In this document: positions 49,200 through 52,245 of the stretch, piece after piece
Numbering within the stretch: the stretch's first letter is position 1
Layout: every line of letters begins with the position of its first letter
The notes under the pieces: generated by a model
What the model was told of the DNA's origin: nothing
The model's database searches: none
Seen by the model: only the letters and a program-made list of their open reading frames with translations
Assembly: GCA_017509205.1 (NCBI GenBank)
Contig: JAFWQF010000019.1
Location: forward strand, 1 to 64,000
Source of the DNA: Clostridiales bacterium
GTDB lineage: Bacteria > Bacillota > Clostridia > Saccharofermentanales > Saccharofermentanaceae
DNA length: 64,000 nucleotides
Direction: 5' to 3'
Translations under genes and position numbers: made by a program

Positions 49200-49206
49200 T
49201 CCCGTG

Positions 49207-50649
49207 ATGACAAAAGATACTTATGAGAGCCCCCTGAATTCAAGATACGCGAGCAGGGAGATGCAGTTCATTTTCTCTCCCGACAAGAAGTTCCGCACAT
49301 GGAGACTTCTTTGGATCGCATTGGCAGAGGCAGAGAAGGAATTAGGCCTTAACATCACAGACGAGCAGATCGCTGACCTCAAGGCTCACAAGGAAGACAT
49401 CGACTATGAGGATGCCGCAGCAGAGGAGAAGATCCGCCGCCACGACGTTATGGCTCACGTACATTCATACGGCAAGCAGGTGTCAGGTTCCGGTGCAGAC
49501 AGGATCATCCACCTCGGTGCTACATCATGCTACGTCGGTGACAACACAGACATCATCATCATGAGAGACGCTCTGACTCTCGTTAAGAAGAGACTGGTCG
49601 TTCTCATTTCCAAGCTCTCTGAATTCGCAGACGAGTATAAGGCAATGCCTACTCTCGGATTCACTCATTTCCAGCCCGCACAGCTCGTAACGGTAGGAAA
49701 GAGGGCAACACTCTGGCTCCAGGATCTCGTATTCGACCTTGAGACAGTTGAAAATGCGATCGCATCACTCAAGCTCCTCGGATGCAAGGGTACAACAGGT
49801 ACACAGGCATCTTTCCTTGATCTTTTCGACGGCGATCACGCAAAGTGCGTAGAGCTCGACAAGAAGATCTGTGCAAAGATGGGATTTGAGTCTTCTTATT
49901 ATGTATCCGGTCAGACCTATTCCAGAAAGATCGATTTCACAGTACTTTCCGCACTCGCAGCAATCGCACAGAGCGCACACAAGTTCTCTAACGACATCAG
50001 ACTTCTCCAGCACTTAAAGGAGATCGAAGAGCCTTTCGAGAAGAACCAGATCGGATCTTCCGCAATGGCATACAAGAGAAACCCGATGAGATCCGAAAGA
50101 ATCGCATCTCTTTCAAGATACGTAATCGCAGACGTTCTCAATCCCGCAATGACATCTTCAGAGCAGTGGTTTGAAAGAACATTAGATGACTCCGCAAACA
50201 AGCGTATTTCTGTACCTGAGGCATTCCTCGCAGTTGATGCTATCCTCGGTATCTACACAAACGTAGTTTCCGGTCTTGTCGTATATCCCAAGATGATCGA
50301 GAAGCACATTCTTGACGAGCTCCCGTTCATGATGACAGAGAACATCATGATGGAAGCAACAAAGAAGGGCGGAAACCGTCAGGAACTCCACGAGGAGATC
50401 CGTCAGCTCTCAATGCAGGCAGGTTCCGTCGTCAAGAACGAAGGCAAGCCCAACGACCTTCTCGAGAGAATTGCTGCTGACCCGAAGTTCGGCATGACAA
50501 TGGACGAGCTCATCAAGCTCAGAGATCCCAAGCTCTACATCGGCAGATGCCCCGAGCAGGTCGATGCATTCCTTAACGAGTGCGTAAGGCCTCTGCTTGC
50601 ATCACACAAGGACGATCTCGCAGTAGACGAAGTCGAGCTGAAAGTCTGA
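49207..50649 (+). CDS. purB: Adenylosuccinate lyase
   Basis: Cleaves adenylosuccinate and SAICAR with release of fumarate in purine synthesis. The 480 residues contain RRHDVMAHVHSYG, IHLGATSCYVGDNTDIIIM and the fumarase/aspartase signature GSSAMAYKRNPMRSE (here with the catalytic Ser loop). The start is ATG 49207, preceded by GGAGGAG; an overlapping GTG at 49204 adds one residue. A strong terminator follows at 50674. Confidence 0.96.
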   Translation: MTKDTYESPLNSRYASREMQFIFSPDKKFRTWRLLWIALAEAEKELGLNITDEQIADLKAHKEDIDYEDAAAEEKIRRHDVMAHVHSYGKQVSGSGADRIIHLGATSCYVGDNTDIIIMRDALTLVKKRLVVLISKLSEFADEYKAMPTLGFTHFQPAQLVTVGKRATLWLQDLVFDLETVENAIASLKLLGCKGTTGTQASFLDLFDGDHAKCVELDKKICAKMGFESSYYVSGQTYSRKIDFTVLSALAAIAQSAHKFSNDIRLLQHLKEIEEPFEKNQIGSSAMAYKRNPMRSERIASLSRYVIADVLNPAMTSSEQWFERTLDDSANKRISVPEAFLAVDAILGIYTNVVSGLVVYPKMIEKHILDELPFMMTENIMMEATKKGGNRQELHEEIRQLSMQAGSVVKNEGKPNDLLERIAADPKFGMTMDELIKLRDPKLYIGRCPEQVDAFLNECVRPLLASHKDDLAVDEVELKV

Positions 50650-50673
50650 TACTGTTTTCAAATGAATTAATGA

Positions 50674-50702
50674 AGGCTGTTCGTAATGAACAGCCTTTTT
50701 TT
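50674..50702 (+). terminator. Intrinsic terminator of purB
   Basis: AGGCTGTTC (50674-50682), loop GTAAT, GAACAGCCT (50688-50696), then seven T residues. Perfect 9-bp stem 25 bp after the purB stop. Confidence 0.93.
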
Positions 50703-50706
50703 ACTT

Positions 50707-50900
50707 AACCTACGGACTAAAACAGCAAATACAATAAATCAGTCCGTAGGTTTCTAAAATATTAGAAATAGAAATACCTAAACCTACGGACCGGATATAA
50801 GATTTAATCAATTCAGTCCGTAGTTTTCTGGTTTATTGATCCAAATACAATCTAAACCTACGGACTAAAAACACAAAAATGCCAATTTAGTCCGTAGTTA
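50707..50900. repeat. Three tandem inverted repeats with exact 74-bp period
   Basis: Six copies of an 8-bp core alternate in orientation: CTACGGAC at 50710-50717, 50784-50791 and 50858-50865, and GTCCGTAG at 50742-50749, 50816-50823 and 50890-50897. Both series have a period of exactly 74 bp. Each pair forms an inverted repeat with 8-12-bp arms (AACCTACGGACT...AGTCCGTAGGTT in the first) around an AT-rich loop of about 16-24 nt. The loops and the spacers between units differ, so only the arms are conserved. Core centres are 32 and 42 bp apart, close to three and four helical turns. The array lies between the convergent terminators of purB and argG, outside both transcripts. It is not a CRISPR. 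Function unknown. Confidence 0.9.
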
Positions 50901-50925: not shown

Positions 50926-50954
50926 GAAAAAGGCTGCCACACGAGTGACAGCCT
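50926..50954 (-). terminator. Intrinsic terminator of argG
   Basis: Read on the minus strand, AGGCTGTCAC and GTGGCAGCCT form a 10-pair stem (one G.U) around a TCGT loop, followed by a run of T. It lies just after the argG stop codon and faces the purB terminator across the repeat array. Confidence 0.9.
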
Positions 50955-50979
50955 TGATTTGATCAATCAGAAACAGTTA

Positions 50980-52194
50980 TCAGAGAAGTCCGTTCTTCTT
51001 CTTCATAGCTGCGTTGACTTTCATCGGGAGACCGAAGCAGTTGATGAATCCGCCTGCGTCAGCCTGGTTGTAAACGTCATCAGCCTCAAATGTAGCGATC
51101 TCAGGATCGTAGAGGGAGAAGGGTGACTTTGTGCCTGCAGGTGTGCAGTTGCCCTTGTAGAGCTTCATCTTAACTTCGCCTGTGACAGTCTTTTCCGTGT
51201 CATCAACGAAAGCTGTGAGAGCTTCTCTGAGAGGGTGGAACCACTGTCCGTAGTAAACGAGCTCAGCGAACTTCTGGGATACGAGATCCTTGTAGTGGAG
51301 AGTGTCACGCTCGATGGTGAGGAGCTCAAGCTCTCTGTGAGCTGCGAAGAGGAGTGTTCCGCCAGGAGTCTCATAAACGCCTCTGGACTTCATGCCTACG
51401 AGACGGTTCTCAACGATGTCAGCGATACCAACGCCGTTTGCGCCGGCAACCTTGTTGCAGTACTTGAGAAGATCAGCGGGAGCGAGCTTCTGGCCGTCAA
51501 CTTCAACAGGGATACCCTTTTCGAACTTGATGGTTACATATGTAGGAGTGTCAGGTGCCTTCTCGGGAGAAACCATGAGCTCAAGGATCTTGTCGAGGTT
51601 AGGCTCATTTGCGGGATCCTCAAGATCCATACCCTCGTGAGAGAGGTGCCAGAGGTTCTCATCCTTGGAGTAGTTGTTTTCCTTAGTAACAGGAACTTCG
51701 ATGCCGTGAGCTGCTGCGTAGTCGATCTCTTCGTCACGAGACTTGATGTCCCAGATTCTCCAGGGAGCGAGGATCTTCATCTCAGGAGCAAGAGCCTTGA
51801 TGGAAAGCTCAAATCTTACCTGATCGTTGCCCTTGCCGGTGCAGCCGTGAACGATCGTTGTGCAGCCTTCCTTACGTGCAACATCAACGAAATGCTTAGC
51901 GATAAGAGGACGTGCCATGGATGTTCCGAGGAGGTACTTACCCTCGTAAACTGCGTTAGCCTTGAGAGTAGGGTAGACGAAGTCTGTAACGAACTCGTCT
52001 TCGATGTTCTCAACGTAGCACTTTGTGGCGCCGCACTTGAGTGCCTTAGCCTTGAGGTAGTCGTTGTCGACACCTACGCCGACCTCACCGCAGTAAGCGA
52101 TGACTTCGCAGTCGTAATGCTCAAGGAGCCACGGAATGATGATTGATGTGTCGAGACCGCCTGAATATGCAAGCAGGAACTTTTCTTTTGCCAT
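50980..52194 (-). CDS. argG: Argininosuccinate synthase
   Basis: ATP-dependent condensation of citrulline and aspartate in arginine synthesis. The 404 residues begin [21 protein letters not shown], with the SGGLDTS P-loop of the N-type ATP pyrophosphatases, and continue with [13 protein letters not shown], the [10 protein letters not shown] segment and [10 protein letters not shown]. The true start is ATG 52194 with GGAGG upstream; the frame is open further to 52224. No argH is adjacent in the window. A sigma-A promoter lies at 52246-52274. Confidence 0.96.
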
Positions 52195-52245
52195 AAGGCA
52201 CCTCCGTAATGAATAATTATGCAAGCTGTTGAATAAATCGACAAC

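Follow-up and report, generated by a model that had tools for sequence, protein, structure and literature searches.

The block between the convergent genes purB and argG is probably, judging from its sequence and that of its relatives, a helically phased array of dyad-symmetric candidate sites for a cooperative, sequence-specific oligomerising protein. The window, i.e., the whole stretch of DNA that was analysed, is 64,000 nucleotides long. According to the proposed mechanism, each 40-bp unit would present a 12-14-bp half-site twice, in inverted orientation, and the units, repeated at integral helical turns (seven in the window), would all face the same side of the double helix. A sequence-specific oligomerising protein would bind the units cooperatively and, once bound, may form a filament, a bridge or a loop where transcription units end; this trans-acting protein would be predicted to co-evolve with the core. 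The parts of the block and its flanks are:

49204..50649, + strand: purB (adenylosuccinate lyase), upstream flank; Pfam Lyase_1, ADSL_C
50672..50698, + strand: purB intrinsic-terminator-like hairpin, left border of the block; GAAGGCTGTTCGTAATGAACAGCCTTT, then a T-run
50710..50749, no strand: unit 1, 40-bp dyad, half-site CTACGGACTAAA / AGTCCGTAG; paired arms 50707-50752
50753..50779, no strand: spacer between units 1 and 2, sequence diverged, length conserved
50784..50823, no strand: unit 2, 40-bp dyad, 74 bp past unit 1
50828..50853, no strand: spacer between units 2 and 3, diverged
50858..50897, no strand: unit 3, 40-bp dyad, 74 bp past unit 2
50930..50955, - strand: argG intrinsic-terminator-like hairpin, right border of the block
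50980..52224, - strand: argG (argininosuccinate synthase), convergent flank; Pfam Arginosuc_synth, Arginosuc_syn_C

The preliminary description of the block had reported six cores in alternating orientation, and their coordinates proved exact (forward copies at 50710, 50784 and 50858; reverse copies at 50742, 50816 and 50890), as did the 74-bp period of both the forward and the reverse series. Arms of up to 12 bp, as had been stated, show exact complementarity in units 1 and 3, and the position between the purB and argG terminators was borne out by intrinsic-terminator-like hairpins on both sides and by Pfam support for PurB and ArgG. It had also been argued from centre spacings of 32 and 42 bp that every site occupies one face of the DNA; that derivation depends on the reference base chosen, the half-sites being inverted, and only the direct period of 74 bp, equal to seven turns, is free of any reference. 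The core CTACGGAC is found nine times in the window against 0.83 expected, a count that none of 100 shuffles matched.

The window array belongs to a family within its own genome, where the half-site ACCTACGGACYRRA forms five unlinked arrays (C6, C14, which is the window array, C24, C99 and C115), each of exactly three units with a 74-bp period and, among them all, a single interval of 75. These amount to 15 units and 30 half-sites, whose consensus is ACCTACGGACYRRA, with little information in the loops and spacers. The 2.38-Mb genome contains nine instances of the pair CTACGGAC-N24-GTCCGTAG, all of them inside arrays, and none of its reversed control. The same plan is followed by other cores, i.e., TACCCATAAGAA, which immediately precedes the arrays of C6 and C99, and GCATATAAG, with a period of 73 bp on C17. 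On C6 (L010 4868-5131) four TACCCATMA dyads with one off-phase 81-bp step separate the groEL terminator from the CTACGGAC array, and on C99 (L077 328-1302) an IS30-like transposase gene ends 20 bp upstream of the composite array, which looks like an insertion into the array or next to it. A chance local duplication had been named as the alternative if no second occurrence existed and arms were no better conserved than loops; there are five arrays in this genome and dozens in relatives, and the arms are conserved relative to the loops, so that both checks favoured the original interpretation.

The arrays extend to related species, with a core that turns over. A covariance model built on the 15 units matches 24 of 85 congeners, repeatedly at steps of 74 or 148 bp, and its matches among 188 genomes of the order are confined to this family. 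None of 114 other genomes in the family has the exact core, an absence that is misleading, because the cores have drifted, as the covariance model revealed. A sequence-blind scanner, which looks for one core in three equally spaced inverted pairs, detected arrays in most of the loci examined and in no shuffled DNA of comparable size, where the shuffles preserved local base composition only; some 400 kb taken from eight further members of the genus yielded no arrays, nor did 50 kb of E. coli. Chance origin is ruled out by the excess of CTACGGAC, the genome-wide pair search and the array-free shuffles. The cores in congeners are CTACAGAC/CTACCGAC, CGACGGAC, CTACGGGT, TACCGACTAA and ACGGATAA, together with unrelated ones such as TGTTTACACC, CATCCCAAA, TGTCCCRA and ACTGTCAAA, and arrays in other genera of the family carry TTTACTGGT, CCTACTAAAC, ATTACCACAC and TATCCGTA. 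Core sequence varies between species and also between arrays of one genome, and core base 5, which is G, A/C or C depending on the clade, switches in all arrays of a genome together, as expected of a trans factor. The suggestion of an attachment or partition site found no support, since the arrays are numerous, dispersed and of many cores; phage and plasmid records contain nothing that matches the window array, so that a phage or plasmid origin was rejected, and four viral contigs that carry a bare core pair have no array.

What the family keeps is its architecture of dyads with AT-rich loops and its geometry. In the main superfamily, 79 of 81 units from the species examined have their arms 32 bp apart, even where the period is 63. 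Most species show a period of 74; G033 and its relatives share one of 63, G064 has 52 and 62, G030, G013 and G098 have 53, and G003 has 64, 84 and 95. Spacings were surveyed in selected genome stretches by a scan of 30-135 bp that gave no preference to any spacing, and the arrays were pooled after exclusion of L307, L337, L153 (a 52-bp Anaerostipes repeat) and duplicate loci. The 178 adjacent spacings between 45 and 100 bp took only the values 51-53, 62-65, 72-75, 84 and 94-95 bp, i.e., five, six, seven, eight and nine helical turns. All 178 are within 2.5 bp of a multiple of 10.5, a range outside which uniform spacings would fall about half the time, and with the phase fixed at zero the best-fit repeat is 10.51 bp; many arrays are homologous and the 178 are not independent events, and for the six collapsed family spacing values p = 1.5e-4.

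The strongest single cases for turn-quantised spacing are arrays that mix turn numbers, such as L199 (steps of 53, 63, 84 and 63, with a single half-site and a constant unit span), L365 (63, 73, 72, 73 and 63, across a core switch) and L240 (63, 73, 74 and 74). The exceptions are the 81-bp step in the C6 TACCCAT array, a 39-bp tandem in G047 (L337) and a weak irregular array in C115, and an 87-bp array at L307 was discarded as a coding repeat. Site spacing in whole helical turns, by which a phased array is recognised, is thus found across the family and supports the DNA-level role on one face that had been proposed, together with cooperative binding, which we infer from it; this support is stronger than that on which the proposal was first made. 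Two further loci were recorded. In G003 (L364 1664-2190, 2329-2570) long arrays of 94-95-bp period with two cores, ATTACCACAC and TACCTCCAAA, stand beside a 64-bp array, and in Anaerostipes butyraticus, a member of another family, at least 15 tandem 52-bp units with the dyad CACAGGAGG..CCTCCTGTG (L153 881-1700) are possibly coding.

The arrays sit after the 3′ ends of genes, and convergent gaps are enriched. Among 37 arrays with both flanks, 19 are convergent, 15 tandem and 3 divergent, compared with 21, 72 and 24, respectively, among 117 background gaps of 250-700 bp (19/37 vs 21/117 convergent, p 2e-4 with orthologues counted in), and a terminator-like hairpin lies at most 110 bp away for 29 of 39 arrays. 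Conservation of the array at the purB-argG junction across the genus was not found, and in congener G023 this junction lacks one. In congeners G016, G037 and G019 (L348, L351, L354) the argG terminator is followed by hairpin units of another core (GTAAACTTT; TTACCACAAA at 52 bp). Related species keep orthologous arrays where they share a gene junction (L211/L218/L220, L216/L224). At one convergent junction, species differ in the core family to which the array belongs (L212/L219 vs L223).

Paralogous arrays (L227/L238, L226/L238, C6/C99) differ by 5-7% in the arms and by 27-43% in the loops and spacers; the arms had been described as kept while loops and spacers diverged, and this pattern was recovered both within the genome and between paralogous arrays. 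It is the arms and the lengths that appear, from these comparisons, to be under selection, and not the sequence of loops and spacers. One may ask if the units act as RNA. An RNA-hairpin family, whether of tandem small RNAs, of terminators or of mRNA stabilisers, would account for the stable folding of every unit, seen on both strands with z of -3.2 to -6.7, and for the position of hairpins after terminators, but it is very improbable. G-T and A-C stem mismatches number 37 vs 32 with no strand bias (per-array asymmetry p 0.93), so that the asymmetry between G-U and A-C is missing, and at core position 5 non-pairing bases are fixed in several genomes (12 of 76 units); mismatch balance and fixed position 5 together fit half-sites that act independently on double-stranded DNA better than a stem of RNA. 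An RNA role gives no reason for spacing in helical turns, Rfam models gave no match at gathering score across the whole window, and no promoter-like site was found at the window array. Pairing has nevertheless left some trace, in that pairs covary moderately, the apical loop columns 22/31 have changed on both sides 15 times vs 8.2 expected, and C99 contains a compensatory unit CAACG..CGTTG; base pairing may thus also matter. This covariation, the placement at convergent junctions and the fact that cores all differ, yet every core stays self-complementary, would suit palindromes extruded as cruciforms or hairpins under negative supercoiling, which would serve as torsional sinks or as targets of structure-specific proteins. 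We consider this improbable, since structure alone does not need the arm sequence to be conserved across dispersed units, as it is, nor non-pairing bases to be fixed at core position 5 in several arrays, and DNA loops of about 16-24 nt, such as those of the units, disfavour cruciform extrusion.

A non-autonomous mobile repeat, i.e., a REPIN- or MITE-like satellite whose half-sites are transposase-binding ends and whose arrays are passengers devoid of host function, is a less improbable proposal and still an unlikely one. Copies of entire arrays occur at different places in one genome, and in G091 (L230 2946-3261, L233 58-372, L228 2986) MITE-like elements of about 316 bp with a 3-unit array have the ends TGAAGTGAACC/TGAAGAGAACC; two of these copies have identical TGAAG..CTTCA ends and one of them splits a terminator hairpin. 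Tolerated insertions would likewise show placement at 3′ ends. The TGAAG..CTTCA ends are seen in the G091 copies only, a possible 3-bp duplication is seen in one copy, and none was seen for the window array. Outermost TG..CA half-sites were rejected as element ends because the same variants are present inside arrays too. The five arrays of the source genome have no end sequences in common, only C6 and C99 being similar outside the arms, and orthologous retention also counts against a mobile repeat. Whole-turn spacer lengths amid diverging spacer sequence would be unexpected for passenger DNA, and array-rich genomes have no Y1/RAYT gene. PF01797 is absent from G073, G071, G091, G026, G033, G079, G018, G089 and G069, so that membership in RAYT-driven REPINs or BIMEs was rejected, and the source genome has one interrupted PF01797 fragment.

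Known palindromic elements resemble the arrays in part. REPs usually exceed 100 copies and are obligately associated with RAYTs, which they flank, and BIMEs are REPs that are regularly spaced with alternating orientation; both were reported as protein-binding sites (PMC2817692). The arrays likewise consist of extragenic palindromic units with regular spacing and alternating orientation. However, their units are two separated half-sites with free loops of 16-24 nt, unlike compact GC-rich REP/BIME palindromes, and they combine absence of RAYT, low copy number per core, many cores per genome and turn-quantised spacing. In the source genome the 15 units fall short of the copy number usual for REPs, and the exact-pair search matches array members only. 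The half-sites are not palindromic by themselves, and GTAG, found only where some reverse arms end, is missing from other cores. In Pseudomonas fluorescens SBW25, REPs form ordered tandem arrays as inverted pairs at a fixed distance, as the arrays here do, but the ordered REPIN clusters contain nearly identical repeats adjoined by RAYT genes (PMC3116915), whereas the spacers here are equal in length and unrelated in sequence. GTAG/CGTC-tagged palindromes are extragenic and form multiple families, the CGTC class having no dedicated transposase; as far as the consulted part of that source describes them, they differ by their tags, by short 4-5-bp loops and in that no helical-turn arrays are described (PMC3733652).

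In a search of open-licence papers nothing was found on extragenic palindromes with helical-turn spacing. A parallel in geometry comes from arrays of helically phased operators for cooperative DNA-binding proteins, where sites at whole-turn spacing lie on one face. Such arrays are typically associated with promoters or origins and read by one known protein; the arrays described here differ from them in being dispersed by the dozen at gene ends, with cores that drift.

A half-site shared over unlinked loci, a genome-wide switch of that half-site between species and phase-locked spacers of neutral sequence are what would be expected from a sequence-specific protein that binds cooperatively along one DNA face. 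Spread of the arrays as mobile DNA would not conflict with their being read as binding sites, and many cores per genome need several proteins or a mainly structural reader. The most likely use of a phased array of such sites would be architectural, at the ends of transcription units, where it may serve as a boundary, a loop anchor or a roadblock between convergent genes; an architectural or insulating role is inferred for the arrays. More tentatively, and with the balance somewhat against it, the arrays may be family-wide gene-end elements in which palindromy and helical phase alone are constant and the recognised sequence turns over between species and arrays, thus forming a bacterial chromatin-like or insulator system run by fast-evolving, sequence-specific oligomerising proteins. 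The window array offers a concrete bait for a new DNA-architecture protein, and dyads at whole-turn spacing provide a simple scanner for similar elements elsewhere. If the broader proposal is true, uncultured gut bacteria would mark the ends of their transcription units by the geometry of arrays, not by their sequence, and selection on the helical phase of DNA would be directly legible in genome sequence, at 10.51 bp per turn.
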